Part shown: positions 21,096 to 42,960 of the stretch, piece after piece | How positions within the stretch are numbered: the stretch's first letter is position 1 | Layout: every line of letters begins with the position of its first letter | NCBI GenBank assembly: GCA_023910605.1 | Contig: JAAVVV010000001.1 | Location: forward strand, 2,718,698 to 2,782,697 | Direction: 5' to 3' | DNA length: 64,000 nt | DNA from: Bosea sp. (in: a-proteobacteria) | Lineage (GTDB): Bacteria; Pseudomonadota; Alphaproteobacteria; Rhizobiales; Beijerinckiaceae | Made by a program: the position numbers and the translations under genes | The notes under the pieces: model-generated | The model's input: the letters and a program-made list of their open reading frames with translations, nothing else | What the model was told of the DNA's origin: nothing | Database searches by the model: none

Positions 21096-21157
21096 GTGCC
21101 TTGCGTCGTCCCCTGCCGACCTCGCCATTCGCGGGATGAACCCACGACATGGCCTCG

Positions 21158-21180: not shown

Positions 21181-21246
21181 ATCGACAAGCGCGATCAGCA
21201 ACGAAAGTGGCTCGCGAAGGAGCGGGCCCGGCAAGGGCGAACTGGC

Positions 21247-22650: not shown

Positions 22651-22720
22651 TCCTTCGGGGCCTGAGGCGCACGATTTTTCCCGAAGGCGCGAAACAGCGC
22701 CCGCAACATGGAGGACGACC

Positions 22721-23707: not shown

Positions 23708-23806
23708 GGCTATAGGAGCGGCCCCTGCAGGGCCGCCTGCCGGCCTGATCATGCCATGGCCGTCGCCGGCCATGGCCTTCCTTTCCGCAAGCAAGGCGAG
23801 AAGCCC

Positions 23807-24352: not shown

Positions 24353-24356
24353 CGCG

Positions 24357-25637: not shown

Positions 25638-27151
25638 GCCTTCAACGCCTCTCCAACGCCAGCCTTGCCGCACTCCCCCGCTCGATTGCAAGGCCAGCTT
25701 ATGATCGCGCCGGCATCACGCCGGGCATCGTGCATCTGGGCGTCGGCGCGTTCCATCGCGCGCATCAGGCCGTGGTGGTGGATGACAGGCTGGCGGCCGG
25801 CGAGACAAGCTGGGGCATCATCGCTGCATCTCTGCGCTCCGCCGACACGCGCGATGCGCTCGCGCCGCAGGACGGGCTCTACACCATGGCGGTGCGCGAC
25901 GGCGCTGCGACGTCGCTGCGCGTCATCGGCGCCATTCAGGAGGTCATCGTCGCGCCAGAGGCGCGTGAGCGCCTGATCGCGGCCATGGCCGATCCGCGCA
26001 TCCGCATCGTCTCGCTCACCATCACCGAAAAGGGCTATTGCCGCGCTGCGGGCTCTGGCCTGCTCAACGATGACCACCCCGACATCCGCCACGATCTCGC
26101 CTCCCCGCTTGCGCCCGTCAGCGCGCCCGGCCTGATCGTCGAGGCGCTGCGCCGCCGCCGCAGCGAGAGCGTGGCGCCCTTCACCGTGCTGTGCTGCGAC
26201 AACCTGCCCGCCAATGGCCGCACCGTGCATCGCGTTCTGTCCGACTTCGCAGCGCTGCGCGACATGGATCTCGGCCGCCATGTCGAGGCCGAACTCGTCT
26301 GCCCCTCGACCATGGTCGACCGCATTGTTCCGGCCACCACGGATGCGGATCGGGCAGCCGTCGCTGCCGCGCTCGGCGTCACGGATGCCTGGCCGGTCAT
26401 GACCGAACCCTTCATCCAATGGGTGGTGGAGGACCGCTTCGGGGCGGGGCGCCCGCGCTTCGAGGAGGCCGGAGTCGAGATCGTCGGCGAGGTCGCGCCC
26501 CATGAACTGATGAAGCTCAGACTGCTCAATGGCACGCACTCGACCATGGCCTATCTCGGGCAGTTGTCGGGGCTGGAGACAATCTCCGACGTGGTCGGCC
26601 AACCCGATTTCGCCCGCGTCGTGCGCGCCATGATGGATGAGGAGCTTGGGCCCACCATCCCCGGCTTCACCCGCGCGCAGCTCGATGCCTACAAGGATGC
26701 GCTCTTCGGCCGCTACCGCAACACCGCGCTTCGCCACCGCACGGCGCAGATCGCCATGGACGGCACGCAGAAGATTCCGCAGCGCCTCGTCAACACCGCC
26801 CGCGAACGCCTGGCAACCGGCCAGCCCATCGCCCGGATCGGCCTCGCCATCGCCGCCTTCTGCCGCTTCATGACCGGCACGGGCGAGGACGGGGCGACCC
26901 TGCCGATCAACGATCCGCTGGCGGCCCGCTTCGCCGAGGCCAGCGCCGCTGCGGGCGCGACCGGCGTGGCGCGCACCGGCAACCCCGCCGATGCCGCTGC
27001 CCTCGCTGAAAGACTGGCCCCGGCAATGCTTGGGATCGCCGACGTCTTCGGCGAGATCGGGCGCGACCCCGCCTTGCTGGCTGCGGTCAAGGCGCCTTTG
27101 GCGCGGCTTTATGCAGATGGCGCCCGCGCCACCGTCGCCGCCTTCGCCTGA
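25634..27151 (+). CDS. uxuB: Mannitol dehydrogenase family, D-mannonate oxidoreductase (fructuronate reductase)
   Basis: The 505-residue NAD-dependent polyol dehydrogenase has IVHLGVGAFHRAHQAVVVD at the N-terminus (nucleotide binding). The catalytic Lys-x4-Asn-x2-His appears as KLRLLNGTHS at about 295. Next to uxaC and uxuA, the activity is best read as fructuronate to mannonate (UxuB) rather than mannitol oxidation. ATG 25634 overlaps the dctM stop. Its 3' end overlaps the convergent FAD oxidoreductase gene by 43 nt. Confidence 0.9.
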   Translation: MSLQRLSNASLAALPRSIARPAYDRAGITPGIVHLGVGAFHRAHQAVVVDDRLAAGETSWGIIAASLRSADTRDALAPQDGLYTMAVRDGAATSLRVIGAIQEVIVAPEARERLIAAMADPRIRIVSLTITEKGYCRAAGSGLLNDDHPDIRHDLASPLAPVSAPGLIVEALRRRRSESVAPFTVLCCDNLPANGRTVHRVLSDFAALRDMDLGRHVEAELVCPSTMVDRIVPATTDADRAAVAAALGVTDAWPVMTEPFIQWVVEDRFGAGRPRFEEAGVEIVGEVAPHELMKLRLLNGTHSTMAYLGQLSGLETISDVVGQPDFARVVRAMMDEELGPTIPGFTRAQLDAYKDALFGRYRNTALRHRTAQIAMDGTQKIPQRLVNTARERLATGQPIARIGLAIAAFCRFMTGTGEDGATLPINDPLAARFAEASAAAGATGVARTGNPADAAALAERLAPAMLGIADVFGEIGRDPALLAAVKAPLARLYADGARATVAAFA

Positions 27152-28536
27152 CGCGCGGCAGCTTCGCCGGCGATGTAGCCGTAGCCGACCGCCGTCAGGA
27201 GGCCGTTGCCGGAGAGATAGCCCGAAGCCTGCGCACCCGACACGCCGCAGGCCGCGCCGCCGGCAGCGAACAGATTGGGGAACCCGTCGCCGCTCGTGCT
27301 CACCACCCGCGCCTCGTGATCAACCACCAGCCCGCCCTGGGTGTGGAACAGCGCGCCCGTGACACGGACGGCATGGAAGGGCGGCGACAGCGGCGCGATG
27401 CCCGCCCATCTGCGCCCGAAGCGATCGGTTCCGCCGGCGCGCTTGAGGGCCTCGACCTCGGCATGGGTGGCGGCGAGACTGTCTGCCGGCAGCCGCATCA
27501 TCGCGGCGAGGACTTCGAGGCTTTCCGCGCACAGCACCGCCCCTGCCGCTTCCGCCTGACGGAAATCCTCGAATTGCCGCGCAATACCAGCGATGCGACC
27601 ATCGAACAGGCTCCAGCCCAGCCCCTCCGGTTGAGCGAGGATGCTGGCCGCCGCCTCCGAATATCCCAGCGCCTCGTTGGCGAAGCGTGCGCCAGCGAGG
27701 TTCACCTGATAGCCGCCCTCGACATTGGTGGCCCAGGTGATGAGGATGCCGTGGGGATGGGCCACCGAGCCGTGACCCTGATGGCCGGAGAGATGCCGCG
27801 TGGCGGCTCCAAGCCTGCGGCCCCACACCAGGGCATCGCCCTGGTTGCCGGGATGCCCGAAATACAGCGCCTCCGCCATCGGCGGAATCTCGGCGGCGAC
27901 CAGGTCCTTCGCGCCGCCATAGCCGTTCGAGGCCAGCACCAGAGCCTCGCAGCCGATGCGGTCGCGCGAGCCATCGGGTCTCGCGATCTCCACCCCGGCG
28001 ACCCGCTGGCCATCGCACAGCAGCGCCGCAGCCAGGGCCTCGGTCACGATGTCGACGCCCGCAGCTTCCGCCGCGCTGCGCAACCGGTCCATCAGTTCCG
28101 CGCCGGAACGGCTCGGCAGGCCATGCATGCGGCAGGCCGAATGGCCAGGATAGGTGAAGTTGGTGATGATGGAAAACGGCAGGCCATGCCGATCGGCAAG
28201 CCATTCCAGCACCTCGCCCGCCACGGCGGCGACACGCTCCACCTGCGCGCGTTCAGGTTCGTCATGAGCCTTGGCCATGATGTCGGCGACGAAGCTCGCC
28301 GTGCTGTCCGCGACGCCAGCTTCGCCCTGGAATCGCGTGCCGGCGGCGGGGATCAGCCCGGCGGAGAGCGCGGTGGAGCCGCGGGGCACGGCGTCGCGCT
28401 CGATGACCAGCACCTCGCAGCCCGCCTCGCGCGCCCGCAGCGCTGCAACCAGCCCGGCAGCGCCCGCCCCGATGATCAGCACGTCGCATCGGGCCTCGAA
28501 CGGAAGGCCCGCAGACGGCAGGATCGCCGCGCTCAC
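27109..28536 (-). CDS. FAD-dependent oxidoreductase, fumarate reductase/TcuA-like flavoprotein family
   Basis: The 475-residue flavoprotein begins with a dinucleotide-binding motif (DVLIIGAGAAGLVAALRAREAGCEVLVIERD at about 18-48) and keeps FAD_binding_2 features: GSTALSAGLIPAAGTRFQ, LASNGYGGAKDL, GHQGHGS and a C-terminal LFAAGGAACGVSGAQASGYLSGNGLLTA. Relatives oxidise or reduce C-C bonds next to carboxylates (fumarate reductase, tricarballylate dehydrogenase) or ketosteroids. It is divergent from the HutC regulator and catabolic operon, sharing a palindromic operator, so it probably belongs to that pathway. No signal peptide is seen. Confidence 0.85.
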   Translation of the reverse strand: MSAAILPSAGLPFEARCDVLIIGAGAAGLVAALRAREAGCEVLVIERDAVPRGSTALSAGLIPAAGTRFQGEAGVADSTASFVADIMAKAHDEPERAQVERVAAVAGEVLEWLADRHGLPFSIITNFTYPGHSACRMHGLPSRSGAELMDRLRSAAEAAGVDIVTEALAAALLCDGQRVAGVEIARPDGSRDRIGCEALVLASNGYGGAKDLVAAEIPPMAEALYFGHPGNQGDALVWGRRLGAATRHLSGHQGHGSVAHPHGILITWATNVEGGYQVNLAGARFANEALGYSEAAASILAQPEGLGWSLFDGRIAGIARQFEDFRQAEAAGAVLCAESLEVLAAMMRLPADSLAATHAEVEALKRAGGTDRFGRRWAGIAPLSPPFHAVRVTGALFHTQGGLVVDHEARVVSTSGDGFPNLFAAGGAACGVSGAQASGYLSGNGLLTAVGYGYIAGEAAARQAKAATVARAPSA

Positions 28537-28601
28537 AGGACATGCCCCTTCAGTCCACGCAGCCTTGCGCCTTGTCTCGTCATCTTCTTGCCTCCGGGAC
28601 C

Positions 28602-28635
28602 TTGACGTGACGCATCTGTGCTAGATGTAATACAT
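28602..28635 (+). promoter_or_regulatory. Promoter with palindromic operator for the regulator and catabolic operon
   Basis: TTGACG (28602-28607) and TGTAAT (28626-28631) with an 18-bp spacer form a plausible sigma-70 promoter toward the HutC-type gene. ATGTAATACAT at 28625-28635 is a perfect palindrome (5+1+5) covering the -10. GntR/HutC repressors bind such sites, so autoregulation and control of the divergent FAD gene are likely. Confidence 0.65.
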
Positions 28636-28658
28636 ATAGGCAAGCCGGAGCCCCCGCA

Positions 28659-29519
28659 TTGGACGCCATCGAGACATCCAAGACCCATCGGCTGTATCTG
28701 CTTCTCAAGGATCGGATCACGAGCGGCGCTCTGGGTCCAGGCCAACGCTTGCCGAGCGAGCCCAACCTCGCCGCGACCCACGGCCTCTCGCGCGTGACGA
28801 TCCGGCGGGCGCTCGATGGCCTGGCCCGTGACGGCCTCATCACCCGCCAGCCGGGCGCTGGAACCTTCGTCAATGGCGCAAAGACGCACGCGCCGCTCGT
28901 TGCTAACCTGTCGGATCTCATGGGCCACCTCGTGGCCATGGGCCGCGCCACCCGCGTGAAGCTGCTCTCGTTCGATTACGTCGATCCCGCCCCCGCCGTC
29001 GCCGCCGCGCTTCGGCTCGAGCCGGGCGAGCGCACGCAGCTTTGCGTGCGCGTGCGCTATCTCGACGACAAGCCGTTCTCGCATCTCACCACCCACGTTC
29101 CCGAGCGCATCGGCGCCACCTATTGCGAGGCCGATCTGGCGCGCACGCCGCTGCTTGCGCTGCTGGAGCGCTCCGGCGTCGTGGCGGACCGGGCCGGCCA
29201 GACCATATCGGCCACACTGGCGGGGCCGGAGACTGCCGCAGCACTGGATGTGGAGATCGGCTCGGCGCTGATCTCGCTCACCCGCGTTGTGGTGGATGCG
29301 GAAGGCTGCGGCATCGAGCATCTTTCGGCTCTCTACCGGCCCGACATGCATGCCTTCCACATGGACATGCTGCGCACCGGCGACGGCGCGAACCGGCATT
29401 GGCGGCCCACAGCTTCGGGTTTGCCGAGACTGACGCCCCCATTGAACCCAACCGGCATCCAGACAACTGCGGCAAAGAGCGACCGCAGAGGGCCGACCAC
29501 AGCGAGGAGAAGACCATGA
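28659..29519 (+). CDS. GntR family regulator, HutC/UTRA subfamily
   Basis: The 286-residue regulator has a GntR winged helix (about 8-72; LPSEPNLAATHGLSRVTIRRALDGLARDGLI) and a UTRA ligand-binding domain (about 90-235). The start is TTG 28659, supported by CCGGAG at 28645-28650 and by the promoter just upstream. The last 40 residues are low-complexity and basic. Its stop overlaps the start of the transporter binding protein (ATGA), so it is the first gene of the catabolic operon and probably its repressor, with the imported compound or an intermediate as inducer. Confidence 0.88.
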   Translation: MDAIETSKTHRLYLLLKDRITSGALGPGQRLPSEPNLAATHGLSRVTIRRALDGLARDGLITRQPGAGTFVNGAKTHAPLVANLSDLMGHLVAMGRATRVKLLSFDYVDPAPAVAAALRLEPGERTQLCVRVRYLDDKPFSHLTTHVPERIGATYCEADLARTPLLALLERSGVVADRAGQTISATLAGPETAAALDVEIGSALISLTRVVVDAEGCGIEHLSALYRPDMHAFHMDMLRTGDGANRHWRPTASGLPRLTPPLNPTGIQTTAAKSDRRGPTTARRRP

Positions 29520-30718
29520 CCACCCATCGTCGCACCATCCTGCGCGGCGCCGCCGCAACAGGCGCGCTGCTTGCCATGCCGGGCCTCGTGAGGGCCCAGT
29601 CGCCCGCGATCAAGATCGGCATCCTCCAGCCCGTGACCGGCGCGCTGGCGCAGGACGGCGAATATGGCCGCCTCGGCGCGGAGATCGCGCTGAACGAGAT
29701 CAACAATGCCGGCGGCATCAAGTCGATGGGCGGCGCGCGGCTGCAAATGGTCTTCGGCGACGCGCGCTCCAATCCCGAGGGCGGCACGGCCGAGGTCGAG
29801 CGCATGCAGGCCGAGGGCGTGGCGGCCATCGTGGGCGGCTTCGCCTCCCCCATCGTGCTGGCCGCCAGCCAGGCCGCTTCGCGCTATGACATCCCCTACA
29901 TCTGCGATGTGGGCGTCTCCGACCAGATCGTCGGGCGCGGGCTGAAGAACACCTTCCGTTTCGGGCCCGGCTTCGGCAACGTCACCTCCACCGCGCTGGA
30001 GAACCTCGTCAAGCTGAACGACGCCGCCGGCAAGCCGGCCCGAACCGTCGTCATTGTCCATGAAGACGGCCTGTTCGGCGCCGGCATGGCCAAGCTGCTC
30101 CAGACCCAGCTGCCTCCGCGCGGCTTCGAGATCCTCGAGACCATTGCTCACCCGACGCCTTCGCGCGACATGTCGAACGTGGCCCTGCGCATCCGCGCGC
30201 TGAACCCCGATCTCGTCATCCCGTCGAGCTACTATGCCGAGTTCGTGCTGCTGGCCCGCACCATGCAGCAGCAGCGCATCCGTCCCAAGGGCGTCTACGC
30301 CATCCTGAACGGCGCAGCCTCCAACTTCCGCTTCGTGAAGGAGTTTTCCGACGCGGCCAACCTCGTCATGGACTGCAACCACTGGGCCGATCCGCGCAAG
30401 CCCAAGACGGCGCAGGTCAAGGCGCAGGCCGAGCAGGGCGGCCGGTTCTGGCTCTACAACACCCCGCTCAACTACTCCTGCGTGAGGCTGCTGGCGGACG
30501 CCATCGAGCGCGCCGGCTCGGCCGATCGCGCCAGGGTCACCGAAGCACTCGCCAACTCCGCCTTCTCCGACCACATCATGCCCTATGGCCCGACCAGGTT
30601 CGTCAACGGCCAGAACCAGGGCGCGGCGCCGGTGAACACCCAGGTGCAGAATGGCGATATCAAGGTCATCTTCCCGACCGAGTTCGCCGACGCAAAGCCG
30701 GTCTTCCCGGCGGTCTGA
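29516..30718 (+). CDS. Branched-chain amino acid-type ABC transporter substrate-binding protein
   Basis: The 400-residue protein has a twin-arginine-like signal (HRRTILRGAAATGALLAMPGLVRA) and then a Peripla_BP_6 fold: IKIGILQPVTGALAQDGEYGRLGAEIALNEIN at the mature N-terminus, AIVGGFASPIVLAASQAA and RTVVIVHEDGLFGAGMAK. Such LivJ-like proteins bind amino acids, but also amides, urea and aromatic acids. The ligand here must be judged from the downstream hydantoinase and lyase genes, and is unknown. It is followed by a 188-bp gap holding a palindromic repeat before the permease. Confidence 0.9.
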   Translation: MTTHRRTILRGAAATGALLAMPGLVRAQSPAIKIGILQPVTGALAQDGEYGRLGAEIALNEINNAGGIKSMGGARLQMVFGDARSNPEGGTAEVERMQAEGVAAIVGGFASPIVLAASQAASRYDIPYICDVGVSDQIVGRGLKNTFRFGPGFGNVTSTALENLVKLNDAAGKPARTVVIVHEDGLFGAGMAKLLQTQLPPRGFEILETIAHPTPSRDMSNVALRIRALNPDLVIPSSYYAEFVLLARTMQQQRIRPKGVYAILNGAASNFRFVKEFSDAANLVMDCNHWADPRKPKTAQVKAQAEQGGRFWLYNTPLNYSCVRLLADAIERAGSADRARVTEALANSAFSDHIMPYGPTRFVNGQNQGAAPVNTQVQNGDIKVIFPTEFADAKPVFPAV

Positions 30719-30796
30719 GGCACAAGGCCTCACCCTGCACCTCCACGAGGCGCAGGGTGAGGGCGGCCTGACTGCAAAGGCTGCGATCATTTCACG

Positions 30797-30900
30797 GTGT
30801 CATCCCCGGCGGCGCTTGCAAGGCGCCGGGAAGGGGATCCACCATGCCGATATGCGAATGGATCCCCTTCCCGGCCCGTCGGGCCGCCGGGGATGACGCC
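30797..30900. repeat. Long palindromic repeat inside the transporter operon
   Basis: GTCATCCCCGGC...GGGAAGGGGATCCA (left arm, about 30799-30842) is mirrored by TGGATCCCCTTCCC...GCCGGGGATGAC (right arm, 30859-30898). It resembles dispersed GTCATCCC-type repeats of Rhizobiales. It forms a strong stem-loop between the binding-protein gene and the permease, where it could stabilise the upstream mRNA and raise binding protein over membrane components. It is a different family from the repeat at 7096-7168. Confidence 0.75.
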
Positions 30901-30906
30901 TCGATC

Positions 30907-31779
30907 ATGCTCAAGCTCGACATCTTCCTGTCCGCGCTCGCGAACGGTCTCATGACCGGAGCCGTCTATGCGCTGATCGCGCTGGGGCTGACGCTCGTCT
31001 ATGGCGTGCTTCACATCATCAACTTCGCCCATGGCGCCACGCTGACGGCAGCGATGTTTGCCGTCTTCGTGATGCACAACGCCTTCGGCATCGATCCGTA
31101 CTTTGCGATATTCATCCTCACGCCGCTCTTCTTCGCGCTGGGCTACGGCGTGCAGCGCTTCGTCATCAACCCGGCCAGCCACGGCGATGACAGCAACATC
31201 CTGCTCGTCACGCTGGGCCTCTCCATCATCATCGAGAACGCCCTGCTGGCCGGATTTCGCTCCGACACCCGCTCGATCGACGTGCCTTACGGCTTCTCCG
31301 TCGTCGAGGTGGGCAACCTGTTCTTGTCCACGCCCAAGCTCGTCGCCTTCGGCGCCTCGTTCGTCGTGGCGGGCGCCCTCTGGCTTCTGCTCGCGCGCAC
31401 CGACACGGGCAAGGCCATCCGCGCCGTGGCGCGCGAGAAGACCGGCGCTTCGCTGTCAGGCATCAATGTTGACCACATCTATGCCGTGACTTTCGGCATC
31501 GGCGCGGCCTGCCTCGCCATCGCCGCCTGCCTGCTGATGCCGACCTTCCTCGTCAATCCGCGCATCGGCAACGCCTTCGTGCTCGTCGCCTTCACCATCG
31601 TGGTGCTCGGCGGCATGGGCTCGATCACCGGCGCGCTCATCGGCGGCCTCATCATCGGCGTGGTGGAAAGCCTGTCCGGGCTGTATTTCGGCGAGAGCCT
31701 CGGCCAGATCGGCATCTTCCTGATCTTCATCCTGGTGCTGCTGTTCAAACCCACCGGCCTGTTCGGAGCGCGGGCATGA
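30907..31779 (+). CDS. Branched-chain amino acid-type ABC permease (LivH family)
   Basis: The 290-residue membrane protein has eight or so membrane segments and LivH motifs: NGLMTGAVYALIALGLTLVYGVLHIINFAHG near the start, GLSIIIENALLAGF and a C-terminal VLGGMGSITGALIGGLIIGVVES. ATG 30907 is chosen because an earlier in-frame ATG (30844) lies inside the palindromic repeat and would add an artificial leader. It overlaps the LivM-like gene by 4 nt. Confidence 0.92.
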   Translation: MLKLDIFLSALANGLMTGAVYALIALGLTLVYGVLHIINFAHGATLTAAMFAVFVMHNAFGIDPYFAIFILTPLFFALGYGVQRFVINPASHGDDSNILLVTLGLSIIIENALLAGFRSDTRSIDVPYGFSVVEVGNLFLSTPKLVAFGASFVVAGALWLLLARTDTGKAIRAVAREKTGASLSGINVDHIYAVTFGIGAACLAIAACLLMPTFLVNPRIGNAFVLVAFTIVVLGGMGSITGALIGGLIIGVVESLSGLYFGESLGQIGIFLIFILVLLFKPTGLFGARA

Positions 31780-32768
31780 GCGGCGAAAGCAATTCCATGG
31801 CGCCCTGGCTGCCGATCATCGCCGTCGTCGCCGCGCTTGCCCTGCTGCCGCTTGGGCTAGGCTCGAACACCGTCCTCAACTTCCTCAGCTTCGCGATGAT
31901 CATCACCATCGCGGCCCAGGGCTGGAACATCCTCGGCGGCTATGGCGGCCAGTTCTCCTTCGGCCATGCCGTGTTCTTCGGCACGGGGGCCTATGCCATG
32001 GCGCTGCTTCAGGTGCGGTTCGGCATCAATCCCTGGCTCGCCCTGCCCCTTTCCATGGCGCTGGGCGCGCTGGTCGGCTTCGCCATCGGCTTTCTCAGCT
32101 TCCGTGCTCGTCTGCGCGGCTCCTACTTCGCCCTGGTGACGCTCGCCTTCGCCGAGCTGTTCCGCATCAGCGCCAATGCCTCTGGCTTCACCGGCGGGGC
32201 GGCGGGCGTGCTCGTGCCGCTCAGGCTTGATCCGGCGCAGATGCAGTTCGCCGACAAGCGCGTGGCCTACTGGCTGGCGCTGTGCTTCGTGGCTGCGGGA
32301 CTTGCGCTGACGCTGGCTCTGGCACGCTCCCGCTTCGGCGCACAACTCGTCGCCGTGCGCGAGAACGAGGAGGCGGCCCGCGCTCTCGGCGTCGATGCGC
32401 TTGGCGTCAAGCTCAAGGCCATCACGCTGTCGGGCGCGATCACCGCCAGCGCCGGCTGCCTCTACACCCAGAAATTCCTCTATCTGGACGCCAACCTCGC
32501 CTACGGGCCATGGGTCTCCGTCGAGGCGCTGCTGGCGCCGATCATAGGCGGGCTTGGCACCGTGTTCGGGCCGTTGGTGGGCGCGGTCGTGCTGCTGGGC
32601 CTCGGAGAGGTAACCAAGACCGTGTTCGCCAATCTGATGGGCGGCTCCATCCCCGGCGTCGATCTCGTGGTGTTCGGCGTGCTTCTGATCCTCTGCGTGG
32701 CCCATGCGCCGCGCGGCGTGCTGGGCCTTGCCGGCCGCCTTCTCGGCAAAGGGAGGGCGAGGCCATGA
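31776..32768 (+). CDS. Branched-chain amino acid-type ABC permease (LivM family)
   Basis: The 330-residue membrane protein shows LivM features: GWNILGGYGGQFSFGHAVFFGTGAYA, AFLSFRARLRGSYFALVTLAFAELFR-like sequence, the cytoplasmic loop RFGAQLVAVRENEEAARALGVD and PIIGGLGTVFGPLVGAVVLLGLGE. It forms the translocation pore with the LivH-like protein. It overlaps its upstream and downstream neighbours by 4 nt each. Confidence 0.92.
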   Translation: MSGESNSMAPWLPIIAVVAALALLPLGLGSNTVLNFLSFAMIITIAAQGWNILGGYGGQFSFGHAVFFGTGAYAMALLQVRFGINPWLALPLSMALGALVGFAIGFLSFRARLRGSYFALVTLAFAELFRISANASGFTGGAAGVLVPLRLDPAQMQFADKRVAYWLALCFVAAGLALTLALARSRFGAQLVAVRENEEAARALGVDALGVKLKAITLSGAITASAGCLYTQKFLYLDANLAYGPWVSVEALLAPIIGGLGTVFGPLVGAVVLLGLGEVTKTVFANLMGGSIPGVDLVVFGVLLILCVAHAPRGVLGLAGRLLGKGRARP

Positions 32769-33583
32769 CCCCCCTTCTCTCGGTCAAGGAGGTCAGCAAG
32801 CGTTTCGGCGGCCTGGTCGCGGTCGATCATGCCTCGCTCGAGGTCCGGCAGGGCTCCATCACCGGCCTGATCGGCCCGAACGGCGCGGGCAAGACCACGC
32901 TCTTCACCATCATCGCCGGTTTCGAGCCGGCGACGGCCGGCCAGGTGGCGTTCGAGGGGCGTGAGATCACCGCCCTGCCCGCCCACAAGCGCGCCGCGCT
33001 GGGCATCGCCCGCACCTTCCAGATCGTGCAGCCCTTCGCGGGGCTCAGCGTGCGCGAGAACATCGCGGTCGGGGCCTTCCTGCGCCATGCCGCACGCTCC
33101 GATGCGCTGGCGAGGGCCGACGCTGTAGGGCGCGAGGTCGGCCTCGGCGCGCTTCTCGACCAGCCGGCCGGCGAACTCACCGTGGCGGGCCGCAAGCGGC
33201 TCGAACTTGCCCGCGCGCTGGCCACGGAGCCGAGGCTGCTGCTGCTCGACGAGGTGCTGGCGGGACTCAACCCGTCGGAAATCCGCGACATGATGCCAGT
33301 GGTGCAGGCCATCCGCGCCCGCGGCGTCACCATCCTCATCGTCGAGCATGTGATGCAGGCCGTGATGAGCCTGTGCGACATGGTCCATGTGCTGGCCCAG
33401 GGCCGCATCATCGCCTCGGGCCCGCCCGGCGCCGTCTCGCGCGATGCCAGCGTCGTCGAGGCCTATCTCGGCCATGGCGCCGCCGCGCGCATGCAGGAGC
33501 AGGAGAGCAAGGCCCGCCAGATGCCGGCGTCAGACGCGTCCGCGACGCCTCGCCCCTCACCGGGTGGAGCGCCCCATGCTTGA
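32765..33583 (+). CDS. Branched-chain amino acid-type ABC ATPase (LivG family)
   Basis: The 272-residue ATPase has Walker A GPNGAGKTT (about 37-45), RTFQIVQPFAGLSVRENIAVG, a degenerate signature (LTVAGRKRLELARAL), Walker B LLLLDEVLAGLN and the switch histidine VEHVMQAV. The signature AGR in place of SGG is within the LivG range. The C-terminus (about 245-272) is a non-conserved, charged tail. ATG 32765 is set by overlap with the LivM-like stop. Confidence 0.92.
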   Translation: MTPLLSVKEVSKRFGGLVAVDHASLEVRQGSITGLIGPNGAGKTTLFTIIAGFEPATAGQVAFEGREITALPAHKRAALGIARTFQIVQPFAGLSVRENIAVGAFLRHAARSDALARADAVGREVGLGALLDQPAGELTVAGRKRLELARALATEPRLLLLDEVLAGLNPSEIRDMMPVVQAIRARGVTILIVEHVMQAVMSLCDMVHVLAQGRIIASGPPGAVSRDASVVEAYLGHGAAARMQEQESKARQMPASDASATPRPSPGGAPHA

Positions 33584-34277: not shown

Positions 34278-34280
34278 CGT

Positions 34281-35663: not shown

Positions 35664-36529
35664 CCGCAACGCTCAAGGCCCGCCTCGCTTCAAGGCCCAT
35701 CGTGCTGGCGCCGGGGGTCTATGATCCGCTGACGGCCTTGCTCGCAACCGATGCGGGGGCAGAGGCGCTTTACCTCTCCGGCGCCGCGATCGCCTACACC
35801 CGCCTCGGCCGCCCCGACATCGGCCTCGTCTCGATGAGCGAGGTGGTGGACACGATCGTGCTGATCCGCGACCGGGTGCCGACGCCGCTGGTCGTCGACG
35901 CTGACAATGGCTATGGCAACGCGCTGAACATGCAGCGCACCATGCGCCTGTTCGAACGGGCCGGCGCAAACGCACTCCAGATCGAGGACCAGAGCTATCC
36001 CAAGCGCTGCGGGCACCTTGCCGAAAAGCGCCTGATCCCCGCGGCCGAGATGGCCGGCAAGATCAAGGCCGCGGTGGATGCGCGCAGTTCGGCAGAGACC
36101 CTGGTCATCGCCAGGACCGATGCCGTCGCGGTCGAAGGCTTTTCGGCCGCAATCGAGCGCGCCGGCCTGTATGCCGACGCCGGCGCGGACGTGCTCTTCG
36201 TCGAGGCGCCCGGCTCGCGCGAGGAGCTTGTCGCGGTGCGAGACGCGCTGGGCGGGCGCGCGCCGCTGATGGCGAACATGGTCGAAGGTGGCAAGACGCC
36301 GATCCTGAGCGCCGCAGAGCTCGAAGGGCTGGGCTATGCGCTTGTGATCTTCCCCGGCGGCATCGTGCGCGCCATCGCCCATGCGGCCCGCGATTTCTAC
36401 GAAGGCCTCACGCGCGACGGCACCACGGCCGCCTTTCGCAGCCGGATGTTCGACTTCAACCAGCTCAACGAAGTGATTGGAACGAATCGCATGCTCGACC
36501 TTGGCAAGTCCTATGGCGGGGATGTCTGA
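35660..36529 (+). CDS. Isocitrate lyase/PEP mutase family lyase (2-methylisocitrate lyase-like)
   Basis: The 289-residue TIM-barrel protein has DADNGYGNALN (metal-binding Asp at about 80-82), IEDQ, and K115-R-C117-G-H119, the active-site loop that marks C-C lyases (KKCGH in methylisocitrate lyase) rather than phosphonate mutases. ARTDAVAVEGFSAAIERAGLYADAGADVLFVEAP follows as in PrpB. Expected chemistry is retro-aldol cleavage of a 2-hydroxy-dicarboxylate or tricarboxylate to pyruvate or a similar keto acid plus another acid. 2,3-dimethylmalate lyase is a relative. It overlaps both neighbours. Confidence 0.85.
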   Translation: MTATLKARLASRPIVLAPGVYDPLTALLATDAGAEALYLSGAAIAYTRLGRPDIGLVSMSEVVDTIVLIRDRVPTPLVVDADNGYGNALNMQRTMRLFERAGANALQIEDQSYPKRCGHLAEKRLIPAAEMAGKIKAAVDARSSAETLVIARTDAVAVEGFSAAIERAGLYADAGADVLFVEAPGSREELVAVRDALGGRAPLMANMVEGGKTPILSAAELEGLGYALVIFPGGIVRAIAHAARDFYEGLTRDGTTAAFRSRMFDFNQLNEVIGTNRMLDLGKSYGGDV

Positions 36530-38271
36530 TGAGCGCGCTTGACCCCGTCACCTTCGCCATCCTTACCGGGCGGCTGGAGCAGATCGCCGACGAGATGGAT
36601 GCGACGCTCTACCGATCGGCCTTCAACCCGATCATCGCGGAGGCGCGCGACGCCTGCCACGGGCTCTACCATGCCACCACGGGCGCGACTCTGGTTCAGG
36701 GCGCCAAGGGCCTGCCGATCTTCGTGGGCGCCATGGCTTTCGCCGTGAAGGCCGTCATCGACAAGGTCGAGGCTGCGGGCCCCGGCGCCGTCGAAGCCGG
36801 CGACACCTTCATCTTCAACGATCCGTATGCCGGCGGCACGCATCTCAACGACATGCGGCTGGTGCGCCCGTTGATGCGCGGCGGGTGCATCTTCGCCTGG
36901 CTCGCCTCGGTGGGCCATTGGCTCGACATCGGCGGCAACGTGCCGGGCGGCTACAACCCGCAGGCCACCGAGAGCTTCCAGGAAGGTGTGCTGATCCCCC
37001 CGGTGAAGCTGTTCAGGAAAGGGGTGCTCCAACAGGACATTGTGGACATACTCCAGGCCAACACGCGCCTGCCGCGCTCCAACTGGGGCGACCTCAACGG
37101 CCAGCTCAACGCGCTCGACCTCGGGGAGCGTCGCTTCCATGCGCTGATCGACGAATACGGCGACGAGGTTGTCAGCGCTGCGCTCGAGGCGGCGTCCGCC
37201 AGGGCGGAAGCGCTGATGCGCGAGAACATCGCGGCCTTGCCCGACGGCGTCTATTCCTTCGAGGATTATCTCGACAATGACGGCATCGTTGACGAGAAGC
37301 TGACCATCGCGCTCGACCTCACCATTGCGGGGGATCGCATGAAGCTCGATTTCTCGCGCTCGTCGGCGCCCTGCCGGGGGCCGGTCAACATCGCTCGCTC
37401 GACCGCGGTGGCCTGCTGCTATGTCGCGCTCAAGCATGTGTTCACGGCCGTTCCCGCCAATGCCGGCTGCCTGCGTCCGATCGACTTCGACATCCCCGAC
37501 ACGACCTTCCTCGGCGTGAGCGCGCCGCGGCCGGTCGCCGGTTACACAGAAACCATCCTGCGCATGATCGGCGTCGTCTTCGGCGCGCTGGCCAAGGCCG
37601 ACCCGGCCTGCGCCACGGCCGCTCCATTCGGGACCATCAACGCACTCTCCATCGCCGGGCACAGGCCGGACGGCGAGCGCTGGGTCATGTTCTCCTTCTT
37701 TGGCGGCGGGCTTGGCGGCAATCCGCAATCCGATGGGCTCAACCACGCCAACAACCCGATCTCGACCGCCACCATCCCCCCGGCCGAGATCCTCGAGGCT
37801 TCATACCCCGTGATGTTCACCCAATGGGCCCTGCGTCCCGACAGCGCCGGACCTGGCTCCCATCGCGGCGGCTTCGGCGCCATCTACGAGATCGAGATCC
37901 TGTCCCCGGGCGGCGCCGACGTGTCGCTGCTGGGCGAGCGCGGCCGCCACGCCCCCTTCGGCGTCGCCGGCGGCGGCAGCGCCGCCCTGAACCGCTTCAC
38001 GTGGGACAGCGATGACGGGCCGCGCACCGCCCCCATGACCTCCAAGGTCACGGGCGTGAAGCTCAGACAAGGCCAGCGGCTGCGGCTCGAATCGCCTGGC
38101 GGCGGCGGCTATGGCGATCCGGCGCGGCGCGCCCCTGAGGCGGTGCTCCGCGATGTGCGGCGCGGCTTCATCACTCCGGCAAGCGCCGCCGAAGTTTATG
38201 GCGTCATCCTCGACGGCGCGGGCGCTGTCGACTCAGCCGCAACTGCAGCCCGCCGCGGAGGCACGCCATGA
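36529..38271 (+). CDS. Hydantoinase B/oxoprolinase family protein
   Basis: The 580-residue protein is a HyuB/oxoprolinase B-type subunit. It has DPVTFAILTGRLEQIADEMDATLYRSAFNPIIAEARD at the N-terminus, FIFNDPYAGGTHLNDMRLVRP, SVGHWLDIGG and the C-terminal LRLESPGGGGYGDPARR. With HyuA it forms ATP-dependent ring-opening amidases (hydantoinase, 5-oxoprolinase, caprolactamase) or carboxylases (acetone, acetophenone). The stop of the lyase and its start share one base (TGATG). The HyuA gene overlaps by 4 nt. Confidence 0.92.
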   Translation: MSALDPVTFAILTGRLEQIADEMDATLYRSAFNPIIAEARDACHGLYHATTGATLVQGAKGLPIFVGAMAFAVKAVIDKVEAAGPGAVEAGDTFIFNDPYAGGTHLNDMRLVRPLMRGGCIFAWLASVGHWLDIGGNVPGGYNPQATESFQEGVLIPPVKLFRKGVLQQDIVDILQANTRLPRSNWGDLNGQLNALDLGERRFHALIDEYGDEVVSAALEAASARAEALMRENIAALPDGVYSFEDYLDNDGIVDEKLTIALDLTIAGDRMKLDFSRSSAPCRGPVNIARSTAVACCYVALKHVFTAVPANAGCLRPIDFDIPDTTFLGVSAPRPVAGYTETILRMIGVVFGALAKADPACATAAPFGTINALSIAGHRPDGERWVMFSFFGGGLGGNPQSDGLNHANNPISTATIPPAEILEASYPVMFTQWALRPDSAGPGSHRGGFGAIYEIEILSPGGADVSLLGERGRHAPFGVAGGGSAALNRFTWDSDDGPRTAPMTSKVTGVKLRQGQRLRLESPGGGGYGDPARRAPEAVLRDVRRGFITPASAAEVYGVILDGAGAVDSAATAARRGGTP

Positions 38272-40328
38272 GCCGCCTGCCACGCACGCTCGTCGGCGTC
38301 GATGTCGGCGGAACCTTCACCGACCTCGCCTTCTTCGACGAGGAGACGAGGGCCTTCCGCATCGCCAAGGCGCCCTCGAACCGGGGCGACGAAGCCGTCG
38401 GCTTCATCGAGGGGCTGGGGCGGCTCGGCGACATCGCCGGCCTCGGCGCGATCATCCACGGCACGACCGTGGGCACCAATGCGCTGCTGGAGCGCAAGGG
38501 CGCCCGCATCGGCATCATCACCACGCCCGGCTTCCGCGATGCGCTGGAAATGCGCCGCCGCGACCGGCCGAACACCTGGGGCCTCTGGGGCGATTTCGAG
38601 CCCGTCGCCACGCGCGAAATGCGCGTTGAGGTACCCGAGCGCACCCTTGCCGACGGCACGATCCGCACACCGGTCGATGTCGAGGCCGTGCGTGAGGCCT
38701 GCCGCACCCTCCTGAAAGCCGGCGCGGAGGCACTCGCCATCATCTTCGTCAACGCCTACGCCAATGCCGCCAACGAGCGCGCGGCCTATGATGCGGCGCT
38801 GGCGGCCTGGCCAAACCCGCATGTCGCGCACTCGGCCCAGATCCTGCCCGAGATCCGGGAGTTCGAGCGCACCTCGACCACGGCCCTCAACGCCTATCTC
38901 CAGCCGGTCGTGGCAAGCTATCTTGCACGGCTCGAGGCCGGCCTCTCGGCGCAGGGCTTTCCGGGCTCCTTCCACATCGTGCAGTCCAATGGCGGGGTCA
39001 TGTCAACGGCCACGGCACGGAAGTTCCCGGTCCGCACCGCCCTCTCCGGCCCGGCCGCTGGCGTGATCGCGGCAGCCGAGATCGCCGGGGCGGCAGGCTT
39101 CCCCGACATCATCACGGCTGATCTGGGCGGCACTTCCTTCGACGTGTCGCTGGTGGCCGGCGGCCAGACCTCGCTCGCGGCGCAGACCACCATCGACTTC
39201 GGCATGGTGATCCGCACGCCGATGATCGAGATCACCACCATTGGCGCGGGCGGGGGCTCTATTGCGCATGTCGACGCAGGCGGCCTGCTCGCGGTCGGCC
39301 CTGAAAGCGCGGGTTCGAGGCCAGGGCCGGTGGCCTACGGGCAGGGCAACGACCGGCCTACCCTCACCGATGCCAACATCGTGCTCGGCCGCATCAATGC
39401 CGAGCGGCCCATCGGCGGCAAGCTGGCCCGGCTCGATGTCGAGGCGGCGCGCAAGGCGCTGCTCGACCGCGTCGGCGCGCCGCTCGGCCTCTGCGCCGAG
39501 GAGGCGGCGGAGGCGGTGGTGCGCATCGCCAATGCGCGCATGGCCGGCGCCATCCGGCTCGTCTCCATCGAGCGGGGGCACGATCCCTCGCGTTTCACCG
39601 CCGTTCCCTTCGGCGGCGGAGGCGCGCTCCATGTCGGCGCGCTCATCAAGGATGTGGGGCTCAAATCGGCGCTGGTGCCGCGCTATCCGGGCATCACCTC
39701 GGCGCTTGGCTGCATCATCGCCGACATCCGGCATGATCAGGTCGCCACCGTCAACCTCATGCTGGACGGGCTGGACGCCATGGCGCTCGATCGCCGCATG
39801 ATGCAGGCGGGCGGCGAGGCCCGCGCCGTGGTCGAAGCTTCTGGCCTCACCGTGGAGCGCATCGACGTCACCTTCGAGCTCGACATGCATTACCAGGGGC
39901 AGACCCACACGGTCGCCGTGCCGTTGCCGGTCACCCTGCACGCTTCGAGCACGGGCATCAGCGAGGCGATCGCGCGCGCTGCCTTCGAGGCCGCCTATGC
40001 GCGCGCCTTCTCACGCCTGCTGCCGGGCATTCCGGTGCGCATCGTCAACCTGCGCACCGCCGCCATCGGCCGCCGTCCGCCCTTTGATCTCAAGGCATTG
40101 GCGCCGCAAGCGGATTCAAGTCTTGAAGCTGCGCGGCTCGGCTCGCGGCAGGTCTGGTTTGATGGCGGCTGGCATGAGACGAGCATCTGGGACAGGCTGG
40201 CCCTGCCCGTGGACGCCCGGATCGATGGCCCCGCCATCCTGGAACAGTCCGACGCCACGACCGTGATCGATCCCGGCCTGAGCGCCCGCGTCGACGCGTT
40301 CGGCAACCTGATCGTGGAGCGCCGGTGA
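38268..40328 (+). CDS. Hydantoinase A/oxoprolinase family protein
   Basis: The 686-residue HyuA-type subunit has the ASKHA ATP-binding start GVDVGGTFTDLAFFDEET, IHGTTVGTNALLERKGAR, TADLGGTSFDVSL, EITTIGAGGGSIAHVDAGG and RPGPVAYG. In this family it phosphorylates or otherwise activates the substrate before HyuB completes the reaction. Length is standard and no motif is lost. It lies in the middle of the catabolic operon; substrate specificity is not readable. Confidence 0.93.
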   Translation: MSRLPRTLVGVDVGGTFTDLAFFDEETRAFRIAKAPSNRGDEAVGFIEGLGRLGDIAGLGAIIHGTTVGTNALLERKGARIGIITTPGFRDALEMRRRDRPNTWGLWGDFEPVATREMRVEVPERTLADGTIRTPVDVEAVREACRTLLKAGAEALAIIFVNAYANAANERAAYDAALAAWPNPHVAHSAQILPEIREFERTSTTALNAYLQPVVASYLARLEAGLSAQGFPGSFHIVQSNGGVMSTATARKFPVRTALSGPAAGVIAAAEIAGAAGFPDIITADLGGTSFDVSLVAGGQTSLAAQTTIDFGMVIRTPMIEITTIGAGGGSIAHVDAGGLLAVGPESAGSRPGPVAYGQGNDRPTLTDANIVLGRINAERPIGGKLARLDVEAARKALLDRVGAPLGLCAEEAAEAVVRIANARMAGAIRLVSIERGHDPSRFTAVPFGGGGALHVGALIKDVGLKSALVPRYPGITSALGCIIADIRHDQVATVNLMLDGLDAMALDRRMMQAGGEARAVVEASGLTVERIDVTFELDMHYQGQTHTVAVPLPVTLHASSTGISEAIARAAFEAAYARAFSRLLPGIPVRIVNLRTAAIGRRPPFDLKALAPQADSSLEAARLGSRQVWFDGGWHETSIWDRLALPVDARIDGPAILEQSDATTVIDPGLSARVDAFGNLIVERR

Positions 40329-40939
40329 TGCGCCAACCCTTCGATGTCAGCGCCACGGGTCTTCTGCTGTGCGACCTGCAGAACGACTTCATCCACCCCG
40401 ACGGCGCTTATGCCCGGGGCGGCCAGTCCGCGCCGGAGATCGGGGCGCTGCCCGGGCGCATCAGGCCGCTGGCCGAACTGATGCGCGCCCGCGGCGGCGT
40501 CGTCATCTCGACCCAGTTCACGCTCGTGCCGGGACGGGGCGGCGAGCCGATGATCTCGCCTCATCTCAGGCAGCTCAGGCCATTCCTCTCCAGAGGCGAC
40601 TTCGCGCCGGGCTCGTGGGGCAACGCCACCGTGGATGAGCTTCAGCCAGTGGATGTGACAGTGGAGAAGGTGGCCTATTCGGCCTTCTACATGAGCCGTC
40701 TCGAGTGGGTGATCCGCAAGCTCGGGCTTACGCGGCTCCTCATAGCCGGCATCGTGACCAACGGCGGCGTGGCCTCGACCCTGCGTGATGCGCATGTGCG
40801 CGACATCGACGCCATCTTGCTTGAGGATGGCTGCGCGGCCTTCTCGCCTCGCACTCACCATATCGCGATCGACGCCTTGCGCCCGGTGGGGCGCGTCGCC
40901 ACCATCGCGGAGATGATTGCGGAGATCCAGGCGGCATGA
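40328..40939 (+). CDS. Isochorismatase-fold hydrolase lacking the catalytic cysteine
   Basis: The 203-residue protein has the fold's catalytic aspartate (LLCDLQNDF, D16) and lysine (VEKVAYSAFYMSRL, K114). Where amidases such as N-carbamoylsarcosine amidase carry the nucleophilic cysteine (TxxCV), it reads T144-N-G-G147-V. Loss of this Cys is typical of true isochorismatases, which hydrolyse a vinyl ether. An amidase role beside HyuAB therefore cannot be assumed. ATG 40328 overlaps the HyuA stop by one base; GTG 40325 is possible. It overlaps the LeuC-like gene by 4 nt. Confidence 0.83.
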   Translation: MRQPFDVSATGLLLCDLQNDFIHPDGAYARGGQSAPEIGALPGRIRPLAELMRARGGVVISTQFTLVPGRGGEPMISPHLRQLRPFLSRGDFAPGSWGNATVDELQPVDVTVEKVAYSAFYMSRLEWVIRKLGLTRLLIAGIVTNGGVASTLRDAHVRDIDAILLEDGCAAFSPRTHHIAIDALRPVGRVATIAEMIAEIQAA

Positions 40940-42345
40940 CGGCCAGCCCAAAGCCTCGCACGCTTTTCGACAAGCTCTGGGACCGGCACGTCGTCGCCGT
41001 CCGCGAGGATGGCGAGACGCTGCTCTGGGTCGATCGTCACTTCGTGCACGAGGGCTCCCACCATGCCTTCCGCAAGCTGGACGAGCGTGGCCGCGCCGTC
41101 GCCGAGCCCTCCCTGACCTTCGGCGTGGCGGACCACTACGTGCCGACGCGCGGACGACCCCGCATAGCCGACCCGGAAGTGGCCGGCATGGTGGACCGTC
41201 TCAGCGCCAACGCCGCGCGCCATGGCTTTCGCCTGTTCGGGCTCGATGACCCCGCGCAAGGCATCGTCCATGTGGTGGGGCCGGAACAGGGACTGACGCT
41301 TCCGGGCCTGCTCATCGTCTGCGGCGACAGTCACACCTCGACCCATGGCGCCTTCGGAGCCTTCGCCTTCGGGATCGGCGCCTCCGAGGTCGCGCATGTG
41401 CTGATGACGCAGACGCTCTGGCAGCGGAAGCCCAAGCGCATGCGCATCACCGTCACGGGCGCGCTGGGGCCACATGTCAGCGCCAAGGACCTGGCCCTGT
41501 TCATCATCGCGGAAATCGGCGCCAACGGCGCTCAGGGGCACGCCGTGGAATATGCCGGGCCCGCCATAGCCGCGCTGTCGATGGAGGCGCGGCTGACATT
41601 GTGCAACATGTCGATCGAGGCCGGCGCCCGCTGCGCCCTCGTCGCGCCCGACAACACGACCTTCGCGTTTCTGCGCGGCCGCCCCTTCGCTCCGGAGGGA
41701 GAGGCGCTCAGCCGCGCCATCGCGGACTGGCGCACGCTTGCGACGGATGACGGCGCGCCGTTCGACCGCGACATCGTCATCGACGGGGCCGAGGTCGCGC
41801 CAATCGTGACCTGGGGCGTGAGCCCCGAGGATGCGCTGCCCATCACCGGCGCCGCCCCGCAAGCGGGTGCCGACCCCTTGCGCGCGGCCCATGTCACCGA
41901 AGCGCTGGCCTATATGGGCCTGAACCCGGGCCAGAAGCTGACGGACATCGCCGTCGACCGGGTGTTCATCGGCTCATGCACAAATGCGCGGCTGGAGGAT
42001 CTGCGAGCAGCGGCGGCCGTGCTGCGGGGCCGAAAGGCACGGGTGCCAGGGCTCATCTCGCCCGGCTCAAGCCCGGTCAAGCGGGCCGCCGAGGCTGAAG
42101 GCCTTGATCGCATCTTCATGGATGCGGGGCTCACCTGGGCGGAATCGGGATGTTCGATGTGCGTTGGCATGAATGGCGACCTGGTGGCCTCCGGCGAGCG
42201 CTGCGCCTCGACCACGAACCGCAACTTCCGCGGCCGACAGGGCCTTGGCGCACGAACGCATCTCATGTCGCCCGCCATGGTCGCGGCCGCCGCCGTGACC
42301 GGTCGGCTGACGGATGTGCGCACCTTGCCCCCCGTGGAGGGTTGA
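40936..42345 (+). CDS. leuC: 3-isopropylmalate dehydratase large subunit-like (aconitase family)
   Basis: The 469-residue aconitase-superfamily protein binds a [4Fe-4S] cluster through FIGSCTNARLEDLR and ESGCSMCVGMN (three cysteines). CGDSHTSTHGAFGAFAFGIGASEVAHV is the LeuC signature. Sitting inside a transporter-lyase-hydantoinase operon rather than with leuB, it is more likely a catabolic paralog (like 2,3-dimethylmalate dehydratase large subunit) than the biosynthetic enzyme, but that is inference. It overlaps the isochorismatase-fold gene and lies 3 nt before leuD. Confidence 0.85.
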   Translation: MTASPKPRTLFDKLWDRHVVAVREDGETLLWVDRHFVHEGSHHAFRKLDERGRAVAEPSLTFGVADHYVPTRGRPRIADPEVAGMVDRLSANAARHGFRLFGLDDPAQGIVHVVGPEQGLTLPGLLIVCGDSHTSTHGAFGAFAFGIGASEVAHVLMTQTLWQRKPKRMRITVTGALGPHVSAKDLALFIIAEIGANGAQGHAVEYAGPAIAALSMEARLTLCNMSIEAGARCALVAPDNTTFAFLRGRPFAPEGEALSRAIADWRTLATDDGAPFDRDIVIDGAEVAPIVTWGVSPEDALPITGAAPQAGADPLRAAHVTEALAYMGLNPGQKLTDIAVDRVFIGSCTNARLEDLRAAAAVLRGRKARVPGLISPGSSPVKRAAEAEGLDRIFMDAGLTWAESGCSMCVGMNGDLVASGERCASTTNRNFRGRQGLGARTHLMSPAMVAAAAVTGRLTDVRTLPPVEG

Positions 42346-42348
42346 GCG

Positions 42349-42960
42349 ATGGAGCGCTTCACCCGCCTCAGCGCCAAGGCCTGCCCGCTCGGACTGGCCA
42401 ATGTCGACACTGACCAGCTCATTCCTGCCCGCTTCATGAAACGCTCGCGCGCCGATGGTTATGGTCAGTTCCTGCTGCATGACCTGCGCTTTGCACCCGA
42501 TGGCGCGCCGGTTCAGGGTTTGCCGCTCTCCGATCCGCGTTATGCGGACGCACGCATCATCGTCGCCCAGCGCAATTTTGGCACCGGCTCCTCACGCGAG
42601 GCTGCGGTCTATGCGCTCTGGGATTATGGCGTGCGCTGCGTGATCGCGCCGTCCTTCGGCGACATCTTCGCGTCAAATGCGGTCAAGAACGGACTGCTGC
42701 CCGCCATCATGGCCGAAGCTGACGTGGAGACACTTCTGGCCCGTTTGACTGTGGAGCCCTCGCTGGCGGAGGTCGATCTCGAAGCGCAGACGGTGCGGTG
42801 CGGCGACCTGAACCTCGGCTTCGCCATCGACCCCGTCCGCCGGCTGCAACTGCTCAATGGCTGGGATGATCTCGACCTGACGCTCCGCCATGTCGAGGAC
42901 ATCGCGCGCTATCGCGCCCGCCGGCTGGCCGACGAGCCATGGGCGATGCCGGGCGGCTGA
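42349..42960 (+). CDS. leuD: 3-isopropylmalate dehydratase small subunit-like
   Basis: The 203-residue swivel-domain subunit has ANVDTDQLIPARFMK near the start and the substrate loop RNFGTGSSREAAVYALWDYG near 80, with APSFGDIFASNAVKNGLLP. It pairs with the preceding LeuC-like protein. It is the last gene of the operon; the next gene is on the opposite strand five bases on. Biosynthetic LeuD cannot be excluded by sequence alone. Confidence 0.87.
   Translation: MERFTRLSAKACPLGLANVDTDQLIPARFMKRSRADGYGQFLLHDLRFAPDGAPVQGLPLSDPRYADARIIVAQRNFGTGSSREAAVYALWDYGVRCVIAPSFGDIFASNAVKNGLLPAIMAEADVETLLARLTVEPSLAEVDLEAQTVRCGDLNLGFAIDPVRRLQLLNGWDDLDLTLRHVEDIARYRARRLADEPWAMPGG

Follow-up and report, generated by a model that had tools for sequence, protein, structure and literature searches.

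What compound would be broken down by a gene set that joins an importer and a hydantoinase-type ring-opening enzyme to an aconitase-type hydratase and a carbon–carbon bond lyase? The question is raised by a locus of Bosea sp. (GenBank assembly GCA_023910605.1; 3.76 Mb in two contigs) at positions 27109–42960 of the 64,000-nucleotide stretch analyzed here (contig JAAVVV010000001.1, positions 2,718,698 to 2,782,697), to which we refer as the window. Family-domain searches of the predicted proteins recover a divergent flavoprotein gene and 13 close-packed genes on the plus strand, namely those for a GntR/UTRA regulator, a periplasmic binding protein, the permeases LivH and LivM, the ATPases LivG and LivF, an MmgE/PrpD-family protein, a lyase with a KRCGH motif, HyuB, HyuA, an isochorismatase-fold protein (Iso hereafter), LeuC and LeuD, in that order. 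The junctions measure −8 to +3 nt in 11 of 12 cases, the exception being that between the binding protein and LivH. An original prediction, made from the letters of this stretch, had proposed a single undescribed catabolic unit, and every part that it named is present at its position and on its strand. We propose, with middling confidence, that the unit is an inducible module for a five-membered cyclic imide, maleimide-like or succinimide-like, whose side chain is carboxylated; more tentatively, the substrate may be hematinic acid (3-(4-methyl-2,5-dioxopyrrol-3-yl)propanoate) or its dihydro form. The substrate and all of the reactions are what we infer from gene content, conservation, a missing catalytic cysteine and homologies.

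The gene set is a real unit. A scan with the PrpD-like protein, using one genome per species, found 16 loci at 58–76% identity, in records whose titles are nearly all from Hyphomicrobiales (seven name a pond or Lac Pavin). All 16 hold the same gene set as far as their contigs reach: the lyase is present in 16/16, HyuB, HyuA, Iso, LeuC and LeuD in 14/16 each, and the flavoprotein and the GntR regulator in 12/16, the shortfalls falling at contig ends. LeuCD is found upstream in two Phreatobacter-like loci (L015 and L016), and the flavoprotein there comes after Iso, so that both are part of the unit. Independent regulation is disfavored because the GntR gene heads the operon and the flavoprotein gene is divergent in some lineages and behind Iso in others. 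Within the genus, five of five stretches read have the set (LeuCD in four, the fifth stretch ending beside the GntR gene), and its occurrence is patchy: of 37 genomes, 10 (that of the window among them) have a close match to PrpD (E ≤ 1e-140). The claim of a single unit is thus borne out by the recurrence of the same genes in relatives, and neither the 14-gene set nor a bacterial hematinic acid pathway is described in the titles and abstract openings of the literature searched.

The Iso marker is present in 26 of 385 alphaproteobacterial genomes (22 of 277 genera), in all cases at 54% identity or above. Gene order varies across the class, and the flavoprotein gene is downstream of Iso in many relatives. 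Counted with per-gene minimum identities and 40% coverage, with the window's own locus excluded and L035 and L131/L132 tabled apart, these 26 loci hold HyuB in 23, HyuA in 23, the lyase in 19, LeuC in 16, the flavoprotein in 13, GntR in 10, LivF in seven, PrpD in two and the binding protein in none; the last figure is uninformative, since each of the seven loci that have Liv genes is read only as far as the permeases. Lyase and LeuCD are both lacking from the stretches of L082, L084, L088 and L089 (L084 and L089 are also without HyuBA), LeuCD from those of L065, L070, L076, L081 and L083 and likewise of L032, L098 and L137, and the lyase from those of L067, L069 and L090; several of the partial loci are cut by contig or stretch ends. 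Beyond Alphaproteobacteria the unit is rare: eight of 398 genomes of the phylum match, G782 being the sole one outside the class, and the only match among 369 genomes of G782's class is G782 itself. Plasmid matches come to 30 records, including Paraburkholderia and Variovorax, of which six were read. Azospirillum oryzae has the full unit minus PrpD; in Sulfitobacter TRAP genes replace the Liv importer; and the smallest form read, in a Paraburkholderia record, consists only of the GntR regulator, the importer, LeuCD, HyuBA, Iso and the PrpB-like lyase. We regard this last set as the core, to which PrpD, the flavoprotein, a tautomerase-like protein and Asp/Glu racemase-family genes seem to have been added. 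The carriers are various soil, freshwater and marine bacteria, and at least 7,968 Iso relatives (90% clusters) score at E ≤ 1e-40 among 8,000 candidates scored; given that number, the module is apparently a common part of carbon and nitrogen metabolism that has gone unnamed.

Some variants at these loci are worth recording. A small tautomerase-like protein with a Met-Pro start and a second domain accompanies the module in several lineages, as judged by eye (L137 12631–13122; L138 7669–8235, where it is annotated as tautomerase family; L101 5333–5887; L131 10858–11349). L035, from genome G056, has a related PrpD (44% identity), an importer, a GntR regulator and an Asp/Glu racemase-family gene, with HyuBA, Iso and the lyase absent from its stretch; it may be a sister pathway whose importer is related. 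In the L088 variant HyuBA–Iso has as neighbors a PrpD-like gene, a pair of CaiB-type genes and an isochorismatase-fold protein that does bear the Cys.

Iso (40325..40939, plus strand; PF00857) has the fold, the Asp and the Lys of the isochorismatase-family cysteine hydrolases and lacks their nucleophilic cysteine. In a recount over 61 loci (L069 and L139 are one Tistrella record, which is therefore counted twice), position 148 of the window protein is Gly, as it is in 56 of 57 relatives; the remaining one has Ala, none has Cys, and Asp17 and Lys115 are kept in 57/57. The surrounding loop reads TNGG in 45 of the 46 sequences of an earlier alignment and TNGA in one; among the best 120 homologs it reads GIVTNGGV in 118 and ILTNGGV in one, and one has no such stretch. 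Two Cys-bearing paralogs taken from the same loci hold Cys in the Gly148 column of the alignment. An ordinary cysteine amidase was therefore rejected as the identity of Iso, and the isochorismatase fold named earlier does not by itself warrant taking Iso for a normal amidase. Proteins of this type are now labelled nicotinamidase-related amidase, ureidoacrylate hydrolase or cysteine hydrolase. The predicted structure (predicted local distance difference test score, pLDDT, 93.3) is closest to biuret, triuret and ureidoacrylate (RutB) hydrolases, followed by maleamate amidase and PhzD-type proteins. EntB and PhzD are likewise without the cysteine, and dialkylmaleamic acids break down via their own carboxylate; hence, we propose that the nucleophile is supplied by the substrate, whose carboxylate would take the place of the cysteine. 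This differs from the maleamate amidase NicF/Ami of aerobic nicotinate and nicotine breakdown, which uses a cysteine (structure 4l08 is titled C149A). A conserved isochorismatase-fold enzyme without the cysteine should be of interest to enzymologists.

Next to Iso are HyuB (36529..38271, plus strand; PF02538 at 1.7e-166) and HyuA (38268..40328, plus strand; PF01968, PF05378 and PF19278), which carry the domains of the hydantoinase/oxoprolinase family. A five-membered imide acid fits this arrangement because its two C–N bonds suit the two proteins, HyuAB and Iso, and their cleavage ends in a cis-dicarboxylate; aconitase-type hydratases act on cis-dicarboxylates. One locus, L065, also carries a PuuE-type cyclic-amide hydrolase. 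On Tistrella mobilis pTM2 (L139 6868–8979) a HyuA-like sequence is present where no HyuA gene is listed, and at L069 the HyuA match is in two pieces, such that the gene is possibly broken in that strain or the gene table has a gap.

The hydratase would be the LeuCD pair. LeuC (40936..42345, plus strand; PF00330 at 1.1e-153) is an aconitase-type large subunit with three Fe–S cysteines, which are present in 43 of 44 relatives, the remaining sequence ending before the site; LeuD (42349..42960, plus strand; PF00694) is the small subunit. Both pass curated scores (TIGR00170, 624.9 against 560.25; TIGR00171, 169.8 against 116.25). The cluster LeuC is a second copy; the genome's other LeuC, at C1:3164543, shares 56% identity with it, and the position of the cluster copy argues for a catabolic role of the pair. 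Across 44 loci LeuC is of two kinds, 28 being at 66–84% identity to that of the window and 16 being of a shorter type at 34–39%. The lyase (35660..36529, plus strand; PF13714 at 1.4e-42) belongs with the PEP mutase/isocitrate lyase (ICL) superfamily by virtue of its PEP_mutase domain and of the KRCGH motif at residues 115–119, which is found in the window and in 52 of 53 relatives (KKCGH in the other). Its nearest solved structure is the methylisocitrate lyase 3eoo (8.4e-55), and the 2,3-dimethylmalate lyase 3fa3 is also among its solved relatives; against the methylisocitrate lyase model it scores 284 bits, short of the cut-off of 354.4.

These two enzymes recall the tail of nicotinate fermentation in Eubacterium barkeri, which consists of the dimethylmaleate hydratase DmdAB and 2,3-dimethylmalate lyase. 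In both cases an aconitase-type hydratase would act on a dialkylmaleate, followed by a PEP mutase/ICL-family lyase that yields pyruvate and an acid; besides the kinship of the lyase with 3fa3, many module relatives use the short second type of LeuCD. In contrast to that tail, the module would open a ring by means of HyuBA and the Cys-less Iso, and the product that it suggests is glutarate rather than propionate.

The indication of glutarate comes from Tistrella. In three genomes of this genus (G093, G222 and G320) the genes after Iso are those for an acyl-CoA dehydrogenase, a CoA-transferase of the CaiB type and LeuCD. The dehydrogenase (L067) is very close to solved glutaryl-CoA dehydrogenases (1sir, 2.6e-186), although it misses the NCBIfam model GlutCoADH_Des (215 against 470), and it is an extra copy, each of the three genomes having another elsewhere at 74–75% identity. 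The same kind of CoA-transferase lies between Iso and LeuCD in G307 (L071), of another family, and for the transferases of both L067 and L071 the best model, by a lead of more than 200 bits, is succinate--glutarate CoA-transferase (537 and 513 against a cut-off of 750). The lyase ortholog of the three Tistrella genomes sits at a second locus, where it is accompanied in G222 and G093 by the flavoprotein, GntR, importer, PrpD and racemase genes, and in G222 also by a tautomerase-like gene and a second flavoprotein. A glutaryl-CoA dehydrogenase and a glutarate-type CoA-transferase within the unit make glutarate, on these homologies, a likely product of the lyase, at least in the Tistrella lineage. 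Across the class, glutaryl-CoA dehydrogenase occurs in 23 of 26 Iso-positive and 194 of 359 other genomes (p 4e-4, uncorrected for ancestry and genome size, and treating two class samples as identical), which is a weak co-occurrence.

The flavoprotein (27109..28536, minus strand; PF00890 at 7.8e-51) is an FAD_binding_2 protein of the flavocytochrome c/fumarate and urocanate reductase superfamily. It had been called TcuA-like, and the divergent FAD_binding_2 flavoprotein is indeed there; the label itself is loose, as the two TcuA models give 143 and 109 bits (cut-offs 369 and 373) and flavocytochrome c 217 (cut-off 285). No TcuB-like family is among the domain matches of the 14 cluster genes, to which that search was confined. 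Arg375 and His398, which align with catalytic positions of fumarate reductase in its FxR and HTMGG motifs, are kept in 41/41 relatives, and the second carboxylate-binding Arg, that of ANRLGGN, is missing from the corresponding GYLSGNG. Such a residue pattern fits a C=C bond beside carbonyl groups rather than fumarate itself, and we propose that the enzyme would interconvert succinimide and maleimide, or succinate and maleate, forms. The MmgE/PrpD-family protein (34281..35663, plus strand; PF03972 and PF19305) has as its nearest solved relative IRG1 of B. subtilis, an iminodisuccinate epimerase, and may be an accessory isomerase or epimerase. The name PrpD holds at the level of the family and fails at that of methylcitrate dehydratase (26.4 bits against a cut-off of 950); its earlier placement within the route is not upheld, as it is absent from the smallest set read and found in only two of the 26 class-scan loci.

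The importer is of the Liv type. Its periplasmic binding protein (29516..30718, plus strand; PF13458, Peripla_BP_6; predicted structure moderate, pLDDT 80) has a sole strong solved relative, SAR11_0655 (8wch), crystallized with L-pyroglutamate according to the PDB title, to which it is 30% identical over 358 aligned residues; one 2007 paper apart, SAR11_0655 is unmentioned in the titles and abstract openings of the literature searched on it. The remaining subunits, all on the plus strand, are LivH (30907..31779; PF02653, BPD_transp_2), LivM (31776..32768; likewise PF02653, BPD_transp_2), LivG (32765..33583; PF00005 and PF12399) and LivF (33576..34277; PF00005).

Taken together, we advance the following route. 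The Liv-type ABC system would import the imide, and the FAD protein might oxidize the ring to a maleimide where it arrives in the reduced form. HyuAB, with ATP, would then open the imide to a substituted maleamate, from which the Cys-less Iso would free ammonia, with the adjacent cis-carboxylate of the substrate possibly attacking and Asp17 and Lys115 serving as acid and base. LeuCD would hydrate the resulting cis-dialkylmaleate to a 2,3-dialkylmalate, which the KRCGH lyase would cleave to a 2-oxo acid and a carboxylate; where the latter is glutarate, the CoA-transferase and glutaryl-CoA dehydrogenase would complete its breakdown. If the products are pyruvate and glutarate, the substrate of the lyase would be 2-methyl-3-(2-carboxyethyl)malate, whose dehydrated form would be ring-opened hematinic acid; methylisocitrate, on which the nearest solved lyases act, is a relative of this malate that is shorter by one carbon. 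Hematinic acid arises on oxidation of heme, bilins or chlorophyll, and a widespread mineralization of hematinic and dihydrohematinic acid to pyruvate and glutarate by these steps is a possibility that we raise tentatively; were the substrate such a tetrapyrrole fragment, the module would show the return of pigment remains to central metabolism. The original prediction had suggested a cyclic imide, lactam or hydantoin as the source of the polycarboxylate; an imported cyclic amide or imide could indeed feed the hydratase and lyase, the imide guess being supported in part and the hydantoin guess not. The present analysis adds a named candidate for the substrate, the relationship of the binding protein to a pyroglutamate binder and, for one lineage, glutarate as a likely product.

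Several observations count against a substituted cyclic imide such as hematinic acid. PrpD has no firm step in the proposed route, and glutaryl-CoA dehydrogenase within the cluster is limited to one genus. No pigment-related neighbor was noticed at the loci, in the course of reading rather than by a systematic search. In its predicted structure Iso is nearest to ureido-type hydrolases, and the racemase genes of some lineages are suggestive of hydantoins. Finally, about 8.6 kb downstream of the lyase in the Paraburkholderia record are genes of the xanthine-dehydrogenase family (L140 22140–24567), which would suit a pyridine route.

These observations bear on alternatives of differing merit. An improbable one, though the best placed of those considered, is a pyroglutamate-like lactam, with HyuAB as a 5-oxoprolinase and the amine handled by the flavoprotein or PrpD. 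The kinship of the binding protein with a pyroglutamate binder would accord with it, as would caprolactamase being the top NCBIfam model for both HyuA and HyuB; however, the scores (305 and 504) miss the cut-off of 1000, the opened ring would be an amino acid unsuitable for LeuCD, Iso would be left without a second C–N bond, and the flavoprotein and PrpD are absent from the smallest unit read. Improbable too is a 5-substituted hydantoin, which HyuAB would open to an N-carbamoyl amino acid, Iso would decarbamoylate and the other enzymes would degrade. N-methylhydantoinase is the nearest solved relative of HyuB, the Iso model falls nearest to biuret, triuret and RutB hydrolases, Asp/Glu/hydantoin racemase-family genes lie at some loci, and HyuBA beside an isochorismatase-fold gene resembles the creatinine/N-methylhydantoin pathway, with its N-methylhydantoinase and N-carbamoylsarcosine amidohydrolase. 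Yet in the module the second protein is without the cysteine needed for carbamoyl cleavage, and a hydratase and lyase follow. Moreover, a hydantoin would yield an amino acid, and the gene set shows no evident way of using one; neither a transaminase nor an ammonia lyase is annotated within the operon in six annotated records, and ordinary amino acids would not require LeuCD and the lyase.

Quite unlikely is a six-ring imide derived from a pyridine, such as citrazinate, an imide of aconitate, that would pass via aconitamide, aconitate and isocitrate to glyoxylate and succinate. This route would employ the same enzyme logic, and the xanthine-dehydrogenase family, whose genes are downstream of the lyase in the Paraburkholderia record, includes pyridine hydroxylases. 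Against this, aconitate requires no dedicated LeuCD or lyase, the glutaryl-CoA dehydrogenase would be left unexplained, the other five records read show no annotated molybdenum hydroxylase in their stretches, and no such gene cluster appears in the titles and abstract openings of the literature searched. We regard it as very unlikely that HyuAB is an ATP-dependent carboxylase within an operon for a ketone or other nitrogen-free compound: acetophenone carboxylase subunits do match, but only distantly, the caprolactamase models scoring far higher for both subunits and N-methylhydantoinase and hydantoinase chains far higher for HyuB, and a pyroglutamate-type binding protein would be unexplained. 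A methylcitrate-type propionate pathway is largely refuted and was rejected, for, despite the PrpD- and PrpB-like proteins and the same cleavage logic, both proteins fall short of their family cut-offs, there is no PrpC (the cluster lacks a citrate-synthase-type gene, as originally noted, and the genome as a whole encodes a single member of the citrate-synthase family), and HyuBA and the importer would be unexplained.

Control of the unit would fall to the GntR/UTRA regulator (28659..29519, plus strand, TTG start; PF00392 and PF07702), which is HutC-like and scores 109.5 bits against the HutC model, below its cut-off of 220. Between it and the flavoprotein gene is a promoter/operator-like stretch (28600..28640) with TTGACG at 28602 and the palindrome ATGTAATACAT at 28625. 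By eye, TTGAC recurs in the window and all 15 relatives compared, and TAATAC in the window and nine of those 15; the exact palindrome was not found beside GntR at other loci, and it was rejected as an operator common to them, only the TTGAC-type stretch being alike. A consensus promoter scan found no promoter, and promoter-like and terminator-like sites were fewer than in shuffled sequence.

The gap between the binding protein and LivH is 125 nt if measured to the longest open reading frame (ORF), which opens at 30844, 185 nt to 30904 and 188 nt to the conserved start at 30907, which is Met22 of that ORF; the alignments of many relatives begin near residues 20–22. A perfect 16-base inverted repeat (30826..30874) occupies this gap and overlaps the 5′ part of the long LivH ORF, and it has no second copy in the window at three or fewer mismatches.

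As for the surroundings, the flank adjoining the operon (20376–27151) encodes a TRAP permease (DctM) and a mannitol-dehydrogenase family protein by domain search, and, by eye, uronate-isomerase-like and GntR-type ORFs; it looks like a region for hexuronate use. Three ORFs at 62–2549 of the window look, by their motif, like an IS66-type transposase set. Upstream of the window, large ORFs including one for a helicase-like protein (L134 4628–13079) might, as judged by eye, be a defense or mobile region.

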